From contig NZ_CP133597.1 in assembly GCF_031200575.1 (NCBI RefSeq), positions 1,054,001 to 1,118,000 on the forward strand: a stretch of 64,000 bases of DNA, read 5' to 3'. How positions within the stretch are numbered: position 1 is the stretch's first letter; every line of letters starts with the position of its first letter. Origin of the DNA: Ferroplasma sp. (lineage in GTDB: Archaea > Thermoplasmatota > Thermoplasmata > Thermoplasmatales > Thermoplasmataceae). The translations under genes were made by a program, and so were the position numbers. Shown piece by piece: positions 37,544-47,752 of the stretch. Below the pieces are notes generated by a model that saw only the letters and a program-made list of their open reading frames with translations, searched no databases and was not told where the DNA came from.

Positions 37544-39208
37544 ATGGAGAGTCTTACAGAAAAAGAAAAATCAGAATTCCTAAAATATTACCTTGAATAC
37601 GAAAAAGAGTTAAAAACAAATCCTGATTGGATAAACGATAGAGAGGCACATATAGAGCATAAAAAAGATTTGGAAAAATATCTTTCTAAAGATAAAATAG
37701 GAAAATTGGCAAAAAATGAACTTATTGAATTATTAAAAACGTTATGGGCAAACAATATGTGGCTAGATGTTGATGGTAGATTTATAAAAGGAAACAATAA
37801 TGATTTTGAAATGGTTAGGGATGAAATAGCTAAATTACTTTATGGTGAAGGCGATATAGCAAATAGAATTAATAACTTTTATGTGAAGATAAAGTACTTT
37901 GGAATATCTAATTTGTCAGAAATGCTTAATTTTTCATTTCCAGATAAATATCCATTATGGAACGTTAAGGCAATAGAAAATGTTAAAAGTATTACTTTTT
38001 ATAACAAAGGTTTTCAGCAGATAGGAGAATCAAGCCTAAATACAAATAGCAAGAAAGGCAACGACTATCAAAATGTAATAGATGCTATAACTGCAATAAA
38101 AGATTCCATTTCTAATTCAGTGGGGATAAAACTAGACTTCATTCAAATGGATAGTATAATTTCTTATACAGCCGGACACTACAACCAAGAAGAAAAACCA
38201 AAAACAACTAATACCAAGCAAAACGAAGATAAAGAACAAGAACTAAAATACCCTTCACTTCCAAAAAACATAATACTTCATGGTCCGGTGGGAACCGGTA
38301 AGACATACCTTGCAAGAAAACTAGCAAACTACCTTGCCAAAGGTCAAATAATAAATTTATCCGAAATAGAGACTTTGCTGAATGAAAATATTGACCCTAA
38401 AAACCATGAATTATTTCCAATTGAAGATAGCAATTTTCGTATGGTAACTTTCCATCAGTCATATGGATATGAAGAGTTCATTGGTGGCATAACGGCCGAT
38501 ACCGATGGCAATGCAATAAAATATCATATAAAAGATGGTATATTTATGGAACTGTGCCAACAGGCAAGAGAACATATGGATAGACCATATGTCATTCTCA
38601 TCGATGAAATCAACAGGGGAGATATTTCAAGAATATTCGGCGAGCTTATTACCCTAATAGAGGAGGACAAGCGATATATCAATGAAGCTTCACCAGGTAT
38701 TTCCATTACTGTACCTAACTTCAAGGATAAATTTTCTGTACCTGACAATGTATTTATTATTGGCACGATGAACGATTCAGACAGGAGCATAGCACTTTTG
38801 GACGTAGCTCTACGGAGGAGATTCATTTTCTTTAATGTGCCGCCTAACAGTAAGGTGCTAGAAGGGTGGATTAAAGATGAGGGCCTAAAATCAAAAGTAA
38901 CCAATGCTTTCAGCGCTTTAAATCAGAGGATAGAAAAAGAAAAAGATGTGGATTCAGAAATAGGCCATGCCTTCTTTAAAAGCCTTGAAAACACCAATGA
39001 CGAAAGAAAAGAACTGGTTTATATATTTAAGTACAAAATTTTTCCACTTCTCAATGAAATTTTTTACAGCCAGAATAATGAATTAAAGGAGCTAATACCA
39101 GATGATTTTAACGGGCAAAAACTGAATCTAAATAATATAGAAAATTATCTTGATTATTTAAGCAACCTTATAAAATCAGGCGATTCTAGTGAATATGGGA
39201 AGCAGTAA
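37544..39208 (+). CDS. mcrB: McrB-type restriction GTPase
   Basis: A 554-residue protein. The N-terminal 230 residues form the recognition part; YFGISNLSEMLNFSFPDKYPLWN resembles a helix-hairpin-helix-like element found in related proteins. The AAA+ domain starts with ILHGPVGTGKTYLARKL near 246, then YVILIDEINRGDISRIFGEL near 350 and GTMNDSDRSIALLDVALRRRF near 407-425, the McrB signature (MNxxD and the arginine finger region). McrB hexamers use GTP to drive McrC cleavage of DNA containing modified cytosine. The N-terminus is not the DUF3578 of E. coli McrB, so the recognised modification may differ. It overlaps mcrC. Confidence 0.87.
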   Translation: MESLTEKEKSEFLKYYLEYEKELKTNPDWINDREAHIEHKKDLEKYLSKDKIGKLAKNELIELLKTLWANNMWLDVDGRFIKGNNNDFEMVRDEIAKLLYGEGDIANRINNFYVKIKYFGISNLSEMLNFSFPDKYPLWNVKAIENVKSITFYNKGFQQIGESSLNTNSKKGNDYQNVIDAITAIKDSISNSVGIKLDFIQMDSIISYTAGHYNQEEKPKTTNTKQNEDKEQELKYPSLPKNIILHGPVGTGKTYLARKLANYLAKGQIINLSEIETLLNENIDPKNHELFPIEDSNFRMVTFHQSYGYEEFIGGITADTDGNAIKYHIKDGIFMELCQQAREHMDRPYVILIDEINRGDISRIFGELITLIEEDKRYINEASPGISITVPNFKDKFSVPDNVFIIGTMNDSDRSIALLDVALRRRFIFFNVPPNSKVLEGWIKDEGLKSKVTNAFSALNQRIEKEKDVDSEIGHAFFKSLENTNDERKELVYIFKYKIFPLLNEIFYSQNNELKELIPDDFNGQKLNLNNIENYLDYLSNLIKSGDSSEYGKQ

Positions 39209-40463
39209 TTTAAAAACCCTCTATGAATACGAACCCTGCATGGACAACGACATAATCCATGAACTCAATGAGCTTACATCCCGTAATGAGGAGCTATCTA
39301 AATTTATGGAAATTACTAAGACATATGTAAAATTCAAGCATTATACAGGATTTATCCCAACAAAGAATTATCGAATTCAGGTGCTTCCAAAGATCAGGAA
39401 CCTAGATTTGGATGAAAAGAATAGCAGTAATAATCTTATCAGGATTCTTCTTTATGTTTTCTCGCCACCCGGGGCGAGTATCCCTAAAGTAGAAATTAAG
39501 GATAATACAGAACTCGATATACTAGATCTAATAATACGAATGTATGCCATAACACTTGGAGAACAGATACTACAGGGAGCATATAGAAAATACATTAGAC
39601 TTTCTGAGGAAAGTAAATTTTTAAAGGGAAAGCTTAATATCGCCAAGCAGATAAGTAGAATGGATCAGTCAAAATTTTCGGTTATAGATTTCAGGTTTTC
39701 TATGGACAACGATCTTAATCGGTTCTTTGCACATGCAAACAGGTATTTTATGCAGTTTACACATGACAGGGCAAATGCAAACCTTCTGGCATGGATAGAT
39801 AGCATTCTTCATGATGAGGATATATCACCATGGCATCAATGCAAGATTAGTTTCAACAGGTTAAATGAAAGATTCAGAATTCCTTACATATACGCAAGTT
39901 TAATACTGCAAAATAAGTTGATGCTGTCTGGAGAAAGCTATAATACTATGGCCATGATATTTGACATGAATAAGATATTTGAAAGGTTTTTTACAGAATT
40001 CATATGCAGGAATAAGAGGGAAATATTTGGCAATGAAATTCTACACATAAGGGTTCAGGAAGGAGATTATAATTTCATATATGATAATAATGCTATAAGG
40101 TACACAAAGCCAGATTTAATATTATTTCTTAAGGATTCTACATGTATATTTGATACAAAATACAAGAAACTGGATGAACCAAAAATCTGTGAACTCAAGA
40201 AGAAAAATGATAAAGTTCATTCAATAGCACCCAGTGATCTTTATCAGATGTACGCATATTCCCAGATATATCATTCCAAGAACACAATACTAGTATTTCC
40301 AGGAGCAGAAAGCAAACTCAGTAAATCATACAGATTTACTGAAAATGGTAATAAAAAACTCTGGGTATATATGCTCAAACTGAATCTTAATAATAATTGG
40401 GAATCAGACCTAGTCCAGAATTTTAAGCACGATTTCACGGAAATCCAAAATCAGGATCATTGA
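39195..40463 (+). CDS. mcrC: McrC-type nuclease subunit
   Basis: A 422-residue protein with the McrC order: an N-terminal beta-rich part (YVKFKHYTGFIPTKNYRIQVLPKI), the middle helices, and a C-terminal PD-(D/E)xK nuclease with KPDLILF near residue 305 and CIFDTKYKKL near 320, then SDLYQMYAYSQIY. The start is ATG 39195, inside the mcrB end (14-bp overlap); the GTG at 39189 is less likely. McrC stimulates McrB hydrolysis and cuts DNA between modified sites. Confidence 0.87.
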   Translation: MGSSNLKTLYEYEPCMDNDIIHELNELTSRNEELSKFMEITKTYVKFKHYTGFIPTKNYRIQVLPKIRNLDLDEKNSSNNLIRILLYVFSPPGASIPKVEIKDNTELDILDLIIRMYAITLGEQILQGAYRKYIRLSEESKFLKGKLNIAKQISRMDQSKFSVIDFRFSMDNDLNRFFAHANRYFMQFTHDRANANLLAWIDSILHDEDISPWHQCKISFNRLNERFRIPYIYASLILQNKLMLSGESYNTMAMIFDMNKIFERFFTEFICRNKREIFGNEILHIRVQEGDYNFIYDNNAIRYTKPDLILFLKDSTCIFDTKYKKLDEPKICELKKKNDKVHSIAPSDLYQMYAYSQIYHSKNTILVFPGAESKLSKSYRFTENGNKKLWVYMLKLNLNNNWESDLVQNFKHDFTEIQNQDH

Positions 40464-40825: not shown

Positions 40826-41745
40826 TCGTTATAATGTAATTCTTTTGCTGTAAATTTAAAATGACTCTTTGCAATATCATAATGAGGTAAACAAAATGAC
40901 AAATGCAAAGAGTCAATTAATAAGTATAGAAGAACTAATAAAGCTTTTCATAAATGATAGAAAAGAGGGAAAGAAAGAATTGATTACATGGTTTTTAAAC
41001 AATGTAATGGATCAGGAGGCCATTGAACAATTAAATGCTGATAAATATGAAAGGAACAATAAAAGAACAGGATACAGGAATGGTTACAAGAAGAGAAAAT
41101 TAAAGACATTAGATGGAGAACTAATATTAGACAAGCCTGATATAAGGTCAGGATCTTTTACAACTAAGGTATTTGACAAATACTCCACTGTTGAAAAGGC
41201 TTTAAACTCTGTAATAGTTGAGTCATATATTAATGGGATATCAACCAGGTCTGTTAATAATATAATAAGTAATCTAGGTATAAATGTATCGCCTGAGTAT
41301 GTATCATCACTGAATAAGGATCTTGATATAAAAGTTAAGGAATTCTTAGAAACATGGATAGATGATAAAATAAAATACCTGTACATAGATGCAACATACT
41401 TTAAAGTCAGGGAAAATAGTAAATACACATCAATGGCATTATACACATCAATAGGTGTAAACAGCATTGGAATAAGGCAGATTCTTTCCATGGATGTTTA
41501 TAATTCAGAGGATGGGATGGACTGGAATAATTTCTTCTTCAAGTTAGGGGAAAGAGGATTAATAGGAGTACAGCTGGTAATATCAGATGGCCATAAGGGG
41601 ATAATGAATGCAGTTAAAGAGTCATTTCAAGGATCATTATGGCAGTACTGCCATTTCCATTTCCTTAAGAATTTAAGAAAGACAATGAATAAGGAACAGT
41701 GGAAGGATATATCAAAAATAGTGTCAGAGGCATTAATGGATGAAT
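40826..41745 (+). mobile_element. IS256-type element, truncated by IS110 fragment
   Basis: The left end (TGTAATTCTTTTGCTGTAAA) is followed by a transposase from ATG 40896 that repeats the protein at the window start: MTNAKSQLIS, RTGYRNGYKKRKLK, YLYIDATYFKVREN and VISDGHKGIMNAV (second Asp). It loses homology after KIVSEALMDES near 41745, where minus-strand IS110 sequence begins, so the third catalytic residue and right end are gone. The first TTG in frame at 40869 lies within the element end and is not the start. Confidence 0.82.
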
Positions 41746-42080
41746 CACTGTTTCTCCTGATGGAATGTATATCTCCTTCATTCCTCCCTTCCTAAATACA
41801 TCTGCAAGCTGGAATGAATCCTCCCTGTCAGTCTTCTTATAATTGTTTGCTATTTTAGGAACCTTCGCAGGATTTATCAAATGTATCTTATAGTTTAATT
41901 TTAATAATTCTTTAAAGAGATACTTGCCTGATGTTGATGATTCTATTACAATATCATGATCCCTGTAATTAAATAAAAACCATTGACTGTCTCCATATTC
42001 CTCTAGACAATAATATTTCCATTATCCTCCATAGCCGTAGCATATACGGAACGTTTATGTACATCCAAGCCAATTACCAT
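41745..42080 (-). pseudogene. IS110-family transposase, N-terminal half, frameshifted
   Basis: From ATG 42080 the minus strand reads MVIGLDVHKRSVYATAMEDN, the DEDD-type start of IS110, then a stop; one base later the protein continues EEYGDSQWFLFNYRDHDIV, ESSTSGKYLFKELLKLNY, INPAKVPKIANN and KTDREDSFQLADVF. The first Asp, the Glu and the later acidic pair of the RuvC-like domain are kept. The protein ends at the junction with the IS256 copy, so the serine-containing C-terminal domain is missing. Confidence 0.8.
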
Positions 42081-42262
42081 TTAATCACCTTTGATTCTGT
42101 GAGATTCAGAATCGTAGACTCGACAAACACCTATCCACCTTATTAGATATTAATAAGGTAAGAAATCGAGGCGAATGGCGGCTATTCTTTCTAACGGCCT
42201 CAAGGGTCAAGCTGCATAACAACCGCCTCCGATTCTCACAGCTATATCGTCATATAGCTGAG
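42081..42262 (-). ncRNA. Structured region upstream of IS110 start, possible bridge-RNA relic
   Basis: The 180 bp before the IS110 start codon hold three perfect stems: GATTCTG/CAGAATC (42093-42113, 7-base loop), CCTTATTA/TAATAAGG (42138-42158, 5-base loop) and AGCTATAT/ATATAGCT (42240-42259, 4-base loop), and a possible long-range pairing of TGTGAGA (42098-42104) with TCTCACA (42234-42240). In IS110-group elements the bridge RNA that guides recombination is encoded in exactly this upstream non-coding end. Identification is inference from position and structure. Confidence 0.45.
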
Positions 42263-42751
42263 GCTAAATAAGGTTTTTCATGATTTCTTCCTGCTATGTT
42301 CTCCATGGAATGATGTGTATGAATATAATGGGTCATGGTTATGGATCGATTACTTTCATGGACTTTATTATCTCCATGGGCAGAGGTAAATTGAATATAA
42401 ATATGAACGGAAATGGATGAGTAATAAGGGAGATGCAATGAATTAGAGGCATTTGATGTGTATTGATAGCTTCAGCCATGCAGCTGAAGTGTATTTCTCC
42501 TTCTGAACCGGGTAAAATATTCAGTTATGTGTTGCTTATAGCACTACAGTCATGGCAATTCATGTAGCAAAGAGATAGAATAACATGATGTTTTCGTGTT
42601 AAAGGTCTGTATTACATCGTCTGCTATTTACACATGCGAAGAATCTGCGTATAAACAAAAATTTTTATACACGATACACATATTTAACTCATCATGTTTG
42701 CAATATCTTTTTATCGGACTTTTTCAAGTATAATTATGACGGGGGTGTTAT
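42263..42751. other. Intergenic region before the DISARM-like operon
   Basis: No supported gene. A hairpin CTTCAGC-CATGCA-GCTGAAG lies at 42470-42489. ACACATGCGAAGA near 42632 recurs near 2920, suggesting IS debris. The right end carries the operon promoter (AAGTATAATTA near 42728) and the ribosome site GGGGGTG 5 bp before ATG 42752. Confidence 0.4.
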
Positions 42752-45700
42752 ATGAATCCTGCTTCTATTGAGCTAATAAGGAATGTAAGGCAGCAACTAC
42801 TTGGACCTGCTGGAACATATGATGAATGTATATTTGATAATCCGGTAAACAGGTATGTTGTTGGGATCATTAAACCATATTATGCTAACCATGACAGTAA
42901 TCTAGAAGGCGAATATGTTTTAGATACCGGAGGTGTAGAGGAAGGGGACGAAATAAAGCAGGATACGAAACCACAGCTTAATTCATTTGGCATTTCGTTC
43001 AAAATGATCAATGGCACATTTAACGTTCTTGTAAGTTATGGAAAATATCATCAGGTAAAATTGAATAATAAAGATGTCTATAAAAGACAGTCCGTGCGTC
43101 ATAATAAACTTGGTATAAAAGGTACCTGTGAGTTTATACTCGAATATACAGATTTCAGCACAGTAATATTAAAAGTAGATGAGTATAATGGATATTTTAA
43201 TGTTATGGTTTATAACAAAGCAAATCAGAAAATTAAATATGATGATATATATAGATATTCACTGTTCCAGCCTTCTATAAGAATTAATGTAACTGGGGGT
43301 CTAATAGACACAGAAGCTTGTGGAAATGTAACTGATTCAAACATAAAATTTCTGTATAGGGATACTAAAGAGCTTGCAAGGGGAAAAAATTGTGCTGCTA
43401 TATGGAAGGCTCTCGATGTAGAAAATGAAAATGATAGCGTAAACATCAAGCTTAACAGTTGGCCAGATTATAGTGATAATTACAAAGATTTCTACATCCC
43501 GGATATAAGAACGGATTTCATGCCTGTATATAAATCCTATATTCCTGAAACAAGAAAACTCGAAACAGAATTTAATGCAGAGAACATGGCGGAAAAAAAT
43601 TCCAGCATGGAAAATCTTGATATTCTTATAAACGAGTATAGATCATGGATCACTTCCATAACACCCGCCGTTCCTAAAGATGAAATTCAGGTGAAAACAA
43701 ATATTGAAAATCTTTTAGAGACATGTAATAGAATGGAACGTGGTTTGCAGATCCTCAGAGGTAATAAAGATGCTTCGAGGGCATTCAGGTTTGTCAACAG
43801 AGTTATGGCGACAAATTCTCAGTGGCATCGCAGAGATAGCAATAGCAGTTTTAACTGGAGGGCTTTTCAGATTGCATTCCTGCTAATGGAAATTGAATCA
43901 ATTACAGATCCTGCGTCTGTAGACAGGGATAAAATGGACATACTATGGGTCCATACCGGTTCTGGTAAAACAGAGGCTTATCTGGCTGTTGCCCTTTTTG
44001 ACATAATTTGGAGAAGGTATAAAAGTTCAGGTAAAGATGATAATCCCGGCACGTCCATTATAACAAGATATACCCTGAGACTCCTCACATCACAGCAGTT
44101 CCGCAGAACAGTAGATCTAATTGTGGCTGCCGAATATGTAAGAAATAATTTTGAAGAATTTAATGATAATATTAATTGTCCAATTTCTGCGGGTATGTGG
44201 GTTGGAGGTGGGATGACACCCAATAAAATATCTGATGCAGTTAAAGTAATTCAAAATTCAGTAAAAGGCGAATCTGAGAAGTCAGAAGGGGATCCGGTGC
44301 AGCTATATAAATGCCCTGCATGTGGTAGCTGGCTTGCGATTCCCACGGGTGGGATAAGGGCAGGCACTCCTATATTCGCTGCGGGACCTTGTGGTGGTGT
44401 TACAACAACAGCTGATGTAGACATACAACTACTAAAAGAGGAAAGTGTGTATGGCGCACGGATGGGTGTTTATAGAATAGTATTTCCTAATAAAATGGAA
44501 AGGGAAGATATTATAAATTCTACATTATATGAAGACTTTCATGAAGCTGGAACATATCTAAATATTCCCGGATATAGAATAAGTCATGACCATAAAGATA
44601 TCTATATTACATGCATGAATCCAGAATGCCGCATATTTAATACCAGAATACCTGTTTATACTGTTGATGATCAAATATACAGCAGAAAACCATCAATAAT
44701 AGTGGCTACAGTTGATAAATTTGCAAATATCCCTTTTAACCCTCTGGCCTCCAATATACTTGGAGATATTAATAAAAAAACAAAACCGCCGGATCTGATT
44801 ATTCAGGACGAGATGCATCTTCTTAACGGTCCCCTTGGAAGCCTTTTTGGGCTCTATGAGAATATGGTTGATGCCATTATAGAAAATAGGGGAGATTTAA
44901 AGGTTAAATACATAGGTGCCAGTGCAACTGTTAGTAGCGTGGAGGATCAGGTTTCACTGCTTTTCGCCCGTAGGGCCTCGGTTTTTCCGCCAAGTGGGAT
45001 TCAACAGGATGAAAATTTCTTTTTTACCAAAGATTATGGTGAAAATCATAGAACTAGGATATATGCCGGCATTATGGGAGCACCAGATTTGGGGGTGCAG
45101 ACCCCACTAATACGGCTAATGGCCCAAATTATTGCGTTCAGGGAAAATTTCAGGGACACCTCCGATCTTAAAAATTTTTATACGCCTGTATTCTATTTTA
45201 ATTCAATAAAGGAGCTTTCCATAGCCACATCACTTTTCAGGGAGGATGTCAGGGAATTGCTTGAAAAATTTACCCCGCCAGTTAAACTTGATACAGCAAA
45301 TTATGAGGAACTCTCAGGCAAGGCAAAATCTGCAGAGATACCGGTAAAACTTGATCGTCTTGAAAGCTGGAATATTACACCAGAGGAGAATACAGGGGCA
45401 TTATTTACAACGTCTATGTTCGGAACCGGTGTGGATATCTCAAGACTCACAGAGATGATAATGAGTGGACAGCCAAAATCAACATCGGATTATATACAGG
45501 CAACCGGCAGGATCGGCAGATCGGCGGATGGTGTGGTGTTTGTGTTATATAATCCCCTAAAACCACGCGACATCAGTCATTATGAAATGTTCATGCAGTA
45601 CCACAGCAGAATTAACATTTATGTTGAGCGTTCCCCTGTTTCACCCTTTTCCACTGGATCCATGGAGACCGGCATGGGTGCTACAATCACTGGATTTGTC

Positions 45701-47752
45701 AGGGCGGTCGAACCAGAACTACGTGATGATCCTAGTAAAATATTAATATATAAGGGTTCAATATTCGATGATTTTATAAGGAAAACCGAAGATAGATTAA
45801 GATCTATGGATATAAAAAGTGGAGATATAATTTCTGAAATACATAGAGATAGAGATAAATGGCATCAAATTGTATCAAATCAAAAAAGTAAAGTGATATA
45901 CAGAAGTAATCCATATAAGATGCCACCTCCAGATGACGTTATTATTCTTGGTTCATCGCGTGATACTGTGATGCATCCTCTAGCCAATATAGTATTTAAA
46001 AATGTTCCAAATTCTCTCAGGGAAGTGGATGATATCGCGGTATTTGGACACAATAAAACAGCCGAGTATACAATTAGGCAAACCCAATTTGTTCTATCAT
46101 TTGGTCCAGAATCCATACTTGAGGGTGATCATGGTTCCTACCTCATCCAGCGTGCGGGTTTATACGGAATTCAGTCATCATACTACCTTCCCCAGACTGT
46201 ATCAAACAATACAATTGATGAAAGTAATGGGTATGCTAGAAATCTAATTGCCAGAAAATTTAATTATAACGCCGAGTATATAAAGTTTATATCATTACCG
46301 TCGAATGAATATGTAGGAAAAAATGACCAGACACCTATATATGAAGTTATGCCTTTCCCTACGTGGGGAATCTGCAGTAATGTAAATAATCATAGAAAAA
46401 AAAGCAGCATACTGTATCAATATCTAAAAAAGACTAAAAACATAACCAAAATAATAGGATGCCCAGAATGCGGAAGCTATAAATATACTCCGGTAAGATT
46501 TGTTTCTGCTTGCCCCATGGGGCATCTGGATGATGTAAACTGGAATTTTTCAGTTCATGGTGGCAATATGTGCTACCCGAATTATTATTACTGGGATGCT
46601 GGTGGGTACTCACTCAAGTCTATACATATTGAATGCAGTAAATGTGGGAGGAAGACCAATATGGGAAATATTTATGGGGTGTATAATAAGAATATGATCA
46701 AATGCCCTATACCTGACAACAAAGGAACAGTGTGTGGCATGAATATGTCCATCGCACAGCGTGATTCAAGCTCATTAAGACTTCCAGAGATAATTACATT
46801 ACTCAATATTAACAGTACAGGTAAAGTACCGCAAAACACCGAAGAAAAACTAATTGAGGCAGCTGGAAATGCATGGAAGAGATACAATGATATAAAACTG
46901 TTAGAATCTATCCTCCTTAAACTGGATGAGGTAGATCCTAAAAAACACCAGGAGATAATCTCCAATCCAGATAAGTATTACTTTGGCAACAGCAGTGATG
47001 ACATTATTGGTATTTTCAGGAATGAATTCAGATATCTCTCAGAATCTACAGGTAGTCTTATTGATGAAGAATTCCGTATGGGGGAGTTTACCGCAGCCAA
47101 GAACCATAACTATAATGGAAATGTGTATTATAGACCAATACAGAATATATCTGCAATTGCTATTCAGACGTCATATATCAGGAATACTGGAGGGAAAAAA
47201 GTAAATCATGTATCTGTCCCATCATGCACAGAATACCGGGGAGAGCATTACTTTCCTGCAACAATCCTGTCAGGCGACGCAATTTTCATAAGGTTTAATA
47301 ATATCAAAATACATAGTGAGTATACACATTCTGAATTTAATAGCACAGTGTTTGACAAATATCCGCTGGATTATACATTTACATATTTGCATACGCTGTC
47401 ACATAGTATATTAAGAGCAATATCAGAATATACAGGATATTCCCTCCCATCAATTAGAGAAAGGATTTATGCATTTGGGAATAGCGGTGGTATCCTTATA
47501 TATACAACAGGTGTAGGTAGCGATGGTAGTATGGGTGGACTCGTGGATCTTGTAAATCACGATAAAATGGAAAAAATTCTTGATGATGCAATTCATAATG
47601 TCAGTATATGCTCAAACGATCCTTTCTGTCTCAACACTAAAATGACAGCGGATAAATACAATGGTTCGGCATGCTACAGCTGCATACTTTTACCCGAAAC
47701 GTCATGTGAATATGGTAATAAGTATCTTGACAGAAATGCAGTTTTAATGTGA
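42752..47752 (+). CDS. DrmA-DrmB fusion: DISARM helicase with DUF1998 half
   Basis: A 1666-residue protein. Residues about 400-1090 are DrmA-like: Walker A HTGSGKTEAYLA at 401, RYTLRLLTSQQFRR near 438, the SF2 DExH box IIQDEMHLLNGPLGSLFG near 684 and motif VI QATGRIGRSADG near 918, then NVPNSLREVDDIAVFG at the end. A CPACG knuckle lies near 521. Residues about 1105-1666 are DrmB-like: IRQTQFVLSFGPESILEGDHG, CPECG, VRFVSACPMGHLDDVNW, HTLSHSILRAI, IYTTGVGSDGSMGGLVDL and CYSCILLPETSCEYGNKYLDR (DUF1998). In known DISARM loci these are two genes. DISARM blocks incoming phage DNA. Strong GGGGGTG ribosome site. Confidence 0.85.
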   Translation: MNPASIELIRNVRQQLLGPAGTYDECIFDNPVNRYVVGIIKPYYANHDSNLEGEYVLDTGGVEEGDEIKQDTKPQLNSFGISFKMINGTFNVLVSYGKYHQVKLNNKDVYKRQSVRHNKLGIKGTCEFILEYTDFSTVILKVDEYNGYFNVMVYNKANQKIKYDDIYRYSLFQPSIRINVTGGLIDTEACGNVTDSNIKFLYRDTKELARGKNCAAIWKALDVENENDSVNIKLNSWPDYSDNYKDFYIPDIRTDFMPVYKSYIPETRKLETEFNAENMAEKNSSMENLDILINEYRSWITSITPAVPKDEIQVKTNIENLLETCNRMERGLQILRGNKDASRAFRFVNRVMATNSQWHRRDSNSSFNWRAFQIAFLLMEIESITDPASVDRDKMDILWVHTGSGKTEAYLAVALFDIIWRRYKSSGKDDNPGTSIITRYTLRLLTSQQFRRTVDLIVAAEYVRNNFEEFNDNINCPISAGMWVGGGMTPNKISDAVKVIQNSVKGESEKSEGDPVQLYKCPACGSWLAIPTGGIRAGTPIFAAGPCGGVTTTADVDIQLLKEESVYGARMGVYRIVFPNKMEREDIINSTLYEDFHEAGTYLNIPGYRISHDHKDIYITCMNPECRIFNTRIPVYTVDDQIYSRKPSIIVATVDKFANIPFNPLASNILGDINKKTKPPDLIIQDEMHLLNGPLGSLFGLYENMVDAIIENRGDLKVKYIGASATVSSVEDQVSLLFARRASVFPPSGIQQDENFFFTKDYGENHRTRIYAGIMGAPDLGVQTPLIRLMAQIIAFRENFRDTSDLKNFYTPVFYFNSIKELSIATSLFREDVRELLEKFTPPVKLDTANYEELSGKAKSAEIPVKLDRLESWNITPEENTGALFTTSMFGTGVDISRLTEMIMSGQPKSTSDYIQATGRIGRSADGVVFVLYNPLKPRDISHYEMFMQYHSRINIYVERSPVSPFSTGSMETGMGATITGFVRAVEPELRDDPSKILIYKGSIFDDFIRKTEDRLRSMDIKSGDIISEIHRDRDKWHQIVSNQKSKVIYRSNPYKMPPPDDVIILGSSRDTVMHPLANIVFKNVPNSLREVDDIAVFGHNKTAEYTIRQTQFVLSFGPESILEGDHGSYLIQRAGLYGIQSSYYLPQTVSNNTIDESNGYARNLIARKFNYNAEYIKFISLPSNEYVGKNDQTPIYEVMPFPTWGICSNVNNHRKKSSILYQYLKKTKNITKIIGCPECGSYKYTPVRFVSACPMGHLDDVNWNFSVHGGNMCYPNYYYWDAGGYSLKSIHIECSKCGRKTNMGNIYGVYNKNMIKCPIPDNKGTVCGMNMSIAQRDSSSLRLPEIITLLNINSTGKVPQNTEEKLIEAAGNAWKRYNDIKLLESILLKLDEVDPKKHQEIISNPDKYYFGNSSDDIIGIFRNEFRYLSESTGSLIDEEFRMGEFTAAKNHNYNGNVYYRPIQNISAIAIQTSYIRNTGGKKVNHVSVPSCTEYRGEHYFPATILSGDAIFIRFNNIKIHSEYTHSEFNSTVFDKYPLDYTFTYLHTLSHSILRAISEYTGYSLPSIRERIYAFGNSGGILIYTTGVGSDGSMGGLVDLVNHDKMEKILDDAIHNVSICSNDPFCLNTKMTADKYNGSACYSCILLPETSCEYGNKYLDRNAVLM

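Follow-up and report, generated by a model that had tools for sequence, protein, structure and literature searches.

The region upstream of the broken transposase gene in the window (the whole 64,000-nucleotide stretch of Ferroplasma DNA that was analysed) is very probably (for the guide-RNA identity we put the probability at roughly 0.93) the decayed left end of a Thermoplasmata IS110/IS1111-family element with its guide RNA on the minus strand. This reading, which the original prediction had offered as a possible bridge-RNA relic, has held up since (i) the structure covaries, (ii) the guide loops match the flanks and (iii) an empty target was found. Structure, target pairing, donor pairing, core, ends and the empty target site can all be read from the sequences. 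The relic (42288 to 41745, minus strand) is the left part of an element only, and its features and immediate surroundings are as follows.

41745 to 42288, minus strand: the relic as a whole, with left end, RNA region and the 5' portion of the transposase gene but no right end (homology to intact copies, from the left end to about 41745)
42289 to 42298, minus strand: left half of the original target, CATAGCAGGA (flank of the relic L051 similar; site uninterrupted in L013 and L014)
42282 to 42288, minus strand: '7-bp' end, that is, core AG (42287-42288) plus the 5-nt outer extension AAATC, the donor half-site (alignment of copies)
42271 to 42281, minus strand: left copy of the 11-bp subterminal inverted repeat ATGAAAAACCT (11-bp repeat in intact congeners)
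42096 to 42268, minus strand: bridge/seekRNA region (matched at 152 bits by covariance model R1, whose training set includes the window copy)
42239 to 42260, minus strand: 5' stem-loop (6 of 8 pairs changed on both sides in 20 sequences)
42177 to 42229, minus strand: predicted target-binding loop (stem with 5 of 7 pairs changed on both sides, 99.3% paired)
42210 to 42219, minus strand: 5' guide, matching the empty target AAGCTGCATA over 10 contiguous nt (uninterrupted site of L013/L014)
42187 to 42194, minus strand: 3' target guide TTAGAAAG, which has the sense of the left target with its core AG (GAAAG vs GGAAG of the left flank, 4/5)
42119 to 42170, minus strand: predicted donor-binding loop, including the hairpin 42137-42159
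42161 to 42167, minus strand: 5' donor guide, GATTTCT, whose reverse complement AGAAATC is the 7-bp left end
42128 to 42135, minus strand: 3' donor guide GATAGGTG (in relatives AATAGGAG, matching the right end ATAGGAG)
42097 to 42118, minus strand: 3' arm of the closing stem, partner at about 42227-42239 (helices 2 and 3 of the covarying structure)
41745 to 42080, minus strand: transposase gene fragment with start codon at 42080, in-frame TAG and frameshift, cut at about 41745
40869 to 41795, plus strand: truncated Mutator-family transposase ORF adjoining the cut end (PF00872, E=1e-70)

This copy is dead, its gene being broken, its right end gone and its donor guide mutated. The stop, the frameshift and the cut bear out the inactivated transposase that had been noticed beforehand, and what is left, about the first third of the gene, falls on its own below the profile cut-off (25.6 vs 29 bits). 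The RNA has one visible defect, namely ATAGGTG in the 3' donor guide as against ATAGGAG in relatives and their right ends, and this change at a core position is decay. At the cut end, the last codons of the truncated Mutator ORF run antisense into the relic, and upstream of the relic lie about 45 bp of another Mutator copy, the gene into which the element had inserted; the left target half lies inside this transposase gene remnant, which extends to about 42336. Further along (about 42341-42640) the window carries a remnant of another transposase that is repeated elsewhere in the genome, and the matching locus L006 contains a reading frame that we take to be IS4-like. A 1666-aa ORF on the plus strand (42752-47752), whose first two thirds match DISARM DrmA and whose last third matches DrmB (PADLOC), is an apparent DrmA-DrmB fusion, and because of this ORF and a nearby McrBC gene (39189-40463) the insertion-sequence remains likely sit inside a defence island.

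The structures on which the original prediction was built are all present, directly upstream of the transposase start codon as had been claimed: three perfect hairpins of 9 bp (42239-42247/42252-42260), 9 bp (42137-42145/42151-42159) and 7 bp (42093-42099/42107-42113), together with a 14-nt long-range pairing (42097-42110/42228-42241, 86%). On both strands the 182 nt fold more stably than every one of 200 dinucleotide shuffles (z -4.3 for plus, z -4.1 for minus). As the start codon is on the minus strand, minus is the sense strand, and a plus-strand reading of the RNA was rejected on the grounds of the gene, the model score (152 bits minus vs 12 plus) and the polarity of the guides. Rfam 15 gave no match for the RNA at the gathering cut-off or at E<=5, and a covariance model was therefore built. 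In 20 sequences from seven genera, pairing reaches 93.5% over a structure of 43 pairs (5' stem-loop, closing stem, target loop and donor loop), and 15 of these pairs show two-sided change, a level that none of 500 shuffles reached, while slid versions of the structure are only 32-50% paired; RNAalifold, unaided, proposes most of it. Two-sided changes are few or absent in the closing stem and the outer donor stem. The 42093-42113 hairpin is doubtful because it overlaps, and competes with, the 3' arm of the family-conserved closing stem, and it probably stands outside the working fold. Aligned copies share a constant backbone, with hypervariability in two segments of the first loop.

Matches at the DNA level were found in 10 of 61 genomes searched, and the covariance model detects RNA copies in 34 of the 77 genomes of the family and seven such copies in the genome under study. 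Some contig-edge copies may be misassembled. This genome has ten transposase fragments and no full-length gene, so the intact copy that had been sought there turned up in congeners instead, three of which (G005, G006 and G008) have open transposase frames of 381-388 aa. These intact proteins contain PF01548 and PF02371 (far above both cut-offs in 3/3) and show sequence matches to the IS621 and ISCro4 chains. The RNA structure recurs in intact family copies, and the counter-finding envisaged beforehand, that they would lack it, did not materialise. Among named records, relatives of at least 45% identity are all titled Thermoplasmata, Thermoplasmatales or Thermoplasmatota, bar one 'uncultured archaeon', and the viral contigs of the IMG/VR collection contain no relatives of either lineage described below. 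Insertion sequences of Cuniculiplasmataceae include IS110, according to an excerpt of PMC5155288. In the transposase tree, whose sequences include no named IS1111 or IS110 reference protein, the family resolves with strong support as (F15,(L1,L2)), where F15, L1 (lineage 1) and L2 (its sister lineage) are labels coined here; the row L1_L152 of this tree is the L2 copy adjoining an L1 element in G077.

That the RNA is better kept than the protein, as was originally suspected, is true against five of six compared copies (RNA 84-95% identical without gaps, coding part 77-90% with gaps) but not against the sixth, L044, to which the coding part is slightly closer (0.903) than the RNA (0.890). The same contrast separates RNA from coding identity in pairs of intact elements (0.89-0.95 vs 0.79-0.89), so it is a family trait rather than a sign of selection still acting on the relic RNA, and as evidence of retained function it was rejected.

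The two variable segments follow the flanks of each copy. When each stretch of the RNA was compared, in either sense, with the left and the right flank and the flanks were shuffled between elements as a control, the maxima fell exactly at these segments (z 7.3 and 5.4 in L1; z 4.8 and 3.6 in F15), the 5' segment being the reverse complement of the right flank and the 3' segment having the sense of the left flank plus core. Permutation at fixed register gave P=5e-5 on each side for L1 (n=20 left, n=17 right) and P=2e-4 and 0.00125 for F15 (n=7). A register-free test, which compares each match with random sites of the same locus and combines the p values, gave p=2.7e-10 for the 5' half and right flank of L1 (n=20) and p=5.5e-5 for its 3' half and left flank (n=24), p=1.5e-6 and 6.7e-6 for F15 (n=7), and 1.4e-5 (n=3) and 0.015 (n=3) for F15 elements not used before. 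For the opposite guide order the same test returned p 0.94-0.98 in L1 and 0.94-1 in L1 and F15 together. The scan and the fixed-register test left out L034, L046, G071, G019c and G012 (same target, no left end or degenerate core), the 24 L1 elements of the register-free test do not include L046, and L061 and L057 were excluded from every guide test as degenerate. Taken individually, 9 of 20 L1 elements on the right and 8 of 24 on the left reach p<0.05, the matches being imperfect in many copies because these are old; complete copies that do not match their own flanks are L035, L052 and G046 on both sides, and G020 and L046 on the right. L046 and L037 (G006) have a right flank in common that is matched by the 5' guide of L037 only, the guide of L046 resembling that of other copies, a pattern that suggests either guide exchange between copies or a contig-edge artefact. 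In held-out solo left-end copies the match to the left flank is not significant (1.94/5 for own and 1.67/5 for mismatched flanks, P=0.17, 17 of the 21 examined, one lacking the repeat and three more the 3' guide), a null result that fits decayed or recombined copies, though it was not predicted.

It is on these flank matches that other explanations of the structures founder. The hairpins could serve the transposase mRNA as a leader or a regulator of its translation rather than be a guide, as their place directly upstream of the start codon and the ribosome-binding-like stretch after them would allow, but a leader would have no reason to carry variable loop segments that track the flanks of each copy, and we regard this as very improbable. 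Less credible still is that composition and inherited sequence produced the fold incidentally and base bias the flank matches, since, for all that the genome is AT-rich and that several copies lack a match and solo left ends a significant one, a permutation that keeps composition still yields P=5e-5, the opposite order fails on the very same sequences and the covariation of the fold lies above all shuffles.

The guide-RNA reading gains further from the site into which the window copy had inserted. Its left flank, AACATAGCAGGA-AG, continues as CTGCATACTAAC in two Mutator paralogues that are uninterrupted (L013 and L014), the target thus still occurring twice in the genome, and L015 has a diverged version of the uninterrupted site. 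With the right end of the element itself lost, the 5' guide of the window RNA predicts AAGCTGCATA, which is ten contiguous bases of this empty site, and a second relic, L051, has the same guides at the same place in another copy of the Mutator gene. The 3' target guide of the window copy, taken alone, is not significant in the register-free test (p=0.19). The worry that guide loops might never match flanks has thus been allayed, both by the loops of the family and by the window guide with its empty target. This informative target was found via the flank repeat and not via a search of the genome with the 16-nt predicted target, which at 3 mismatches gave no clear excess over the reversed control (17 vs 17 forward, 15 vs 10 reverse). 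Relic guides, in other words, can still reveal past insertion targets.

The second loop is complementary in sequence to the ends of the element itself. L1 and F15 elements have subterminal repeats that are followed outwards by an extension of 7 bp on the left and 3 bp on the right, though in some copies the repeat is shorter or there is one base more. The inverted repeats are 9-14 nt long, mostly 11-14. The 3-bp end is matched over 7/7 nt in 17 of 20 L1 and 7 of 7 F15 elements with both ends, the matches following the natural variants GGAG/GAAG and GGGAG/AGGAG, and the 7-bp end is matched over 5-6 nt in most elements, with one compensatory case (AGAGGTC/GACCT in G036). Misses concern the 3-bp end in L056, L037 and G077, and the 7-bp end in G096, G020 and G012. 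In intact relatives, the guide RNA would bind the DEDD transposase, as in published bridge/seekRNA systems, its first internal loop would pair with the target and its second with the joined ends of the element, and recombination would take place at the core common to target and donor, here AG. It is by analogy that we infer transcription, transposase binding and catalysis for this guide RNA system, which would add an archaeal AG-core member to a family of genome-engineering interest.

The sister lineage L2, found in G072, G075 (two elements), G076, G411 and G084 and as a left end beside an L1 element in G077, has a homologous RNA upstream of its gene, a model built on L1 only matching 7/7 L2 loci (E 4e-7 to 9e-10), 7/10 F15 loci (one weakly, one partly) and 0/13 outgroup loci. 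Here it is the 3' loop whose partner is the right flank (p=2.6e-5 for six elements, against 0.96-0.99 in the wrong order), the only signal in an exact permutation (P=0.0028) and one that extends over 10 contiguous bases in G084; the 5' half tends towards the left flank, short of significance (p=0.1, n=7), with one clear 7-nt match in G072. The L2 core is CT, the reverse complement of AG, a 7-bp-type extension (GACAC-CT) stands at the right end, and the ends are the mirror image of those of L1, including the extensions GTGTC/ATGTC and AGT/AGA. The donor guides have the same partners in L1 and L2, the 5' one pairing with the 7-bp-type end and the 3' one with the 3-bp-type end. Since the L2 left junction, unlike that of L1, is not constant in length (ACT repeats separate core and repeat in L160-L163, L169 and L171), L2 core positions are uncertain.

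The whole RNA-transposase cassette would thus be flipped in L2 relative to the outer extensions, yielding the IS110/IS621 order with a CT core, and such a flip should be neutral, since an RNA acting in trans can serve its DNA in either orientation. It rests on six or seven elements, two of which (G075a and G075b) are close relatives, and as L1 and L2 are sisters while F15, with L1 polarity, lies outside, it is most simply derived in L2. The simplest origin, and to us the likely one, is that the cassette became inverted between the subterminal repeats. That an L2-type gene and RNA were instead paired independently with foreign ends, through recombination between different elements, is rather unlikely; L1 and L2 copies do sit side by side in G077 and G011, where recombination is possible, but a single inversion explains both the mirror-image ends with their extensions and the RNA still pairing with the homologous end. 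In these two genomes (L152 and L153), the L1 and L2 elements abut left end to left end with one core in common, their genes divergent and their outer ends of equal polarity, and the junction resembles a circle junction. The recombinase, a relative of the inversion protein Piv, may itself have inverted the cassette.

How these elements compare with known systems depends on the feature considered. The original prediction had put the RNA where IS110-group elements have theirs, which is right as to its place upstream of the gene; as far as sequence goes, the ends and guide order of L1 are IS1111-type (right-target guide 5', left-target guide 3') and not in the IS621 order. The nearest outgroup elements examined, in a tree of proteins other than the named references, show the classical IS1111 layout: in the archaeal L189 and L190 the long non-coding region lies downstream, and its 5' half has matches of 9 and 10 nt to the right flank. 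Open PMC literature, the scope of our search (subscription papers and preprints being outside it), yielded no description of guide RNAs in Thermoplasmata elements or of a mirror relation of the L1/L2 type.

In excerpts of Siddiquee et al. 2024 (PMC11187229), IS1111 seekRNA elements (ISEc11, ISKpn4, ISPa11) are given subterminal inverted repeats of about 11-13 bp, extensions of 7 bp on the left and 3 bp on the right, a top-strand match that precedes the bottom-strand match, a GL-P----SG transposase motif and a non-coding region that is downstream of the gene in nearly all and upstream in few (e.g. ISMtsp17, for which those excerpts map no RNA). L1 is like this group, as so characterised, in repeats, extensions, guide order and motif (GLxPxxxxSG is present in the consensus of our transposase alignment) and unlike it in the place of the RNA, which is upstream of the gene in L1, L2 and F15. 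With IS621, going by excerpts of Durrant et al. 2024 (PMC11208160) and Hiraizumi et al. 2024 (PMC11208158), L1 shares an RNA upstream of the gene, a 5' stem-loop, a target loop followed by a donor loop, guides that include the core, and a conserved donor loop with a variable target loop. It differs in that in IS621 the bottom-strand (left) guide comes first, the core is CT and the inverted repeats measure 2-3 bp, whereas L1 has the top-strand (right) guide first, AG and repeats of mostly 11-14 bp, and not the short or absent repeats of IS621-like elements.

The excerpted text of Siddiquee et al. (PMC11187229) takes the reversed guide order to mean that IS1111 and IS110 elements may work differently, a question that both guide orders in one clade, with constant RNA-to-end pairing, make directly testable. 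We lean slightly towards this 'reversed' order being a matter of cassette orientation within the same targeting mechanism, with RNA-to-end pairing invariant and the inversion having occurred naturally. The difference between IS110 and IS1111 elements could then be the same mirror relation as that between L1 and L2, for in L2, as in the excerpted accounts of IS621, the 5' side of each loop goes to the bottom strand and the core is CT.
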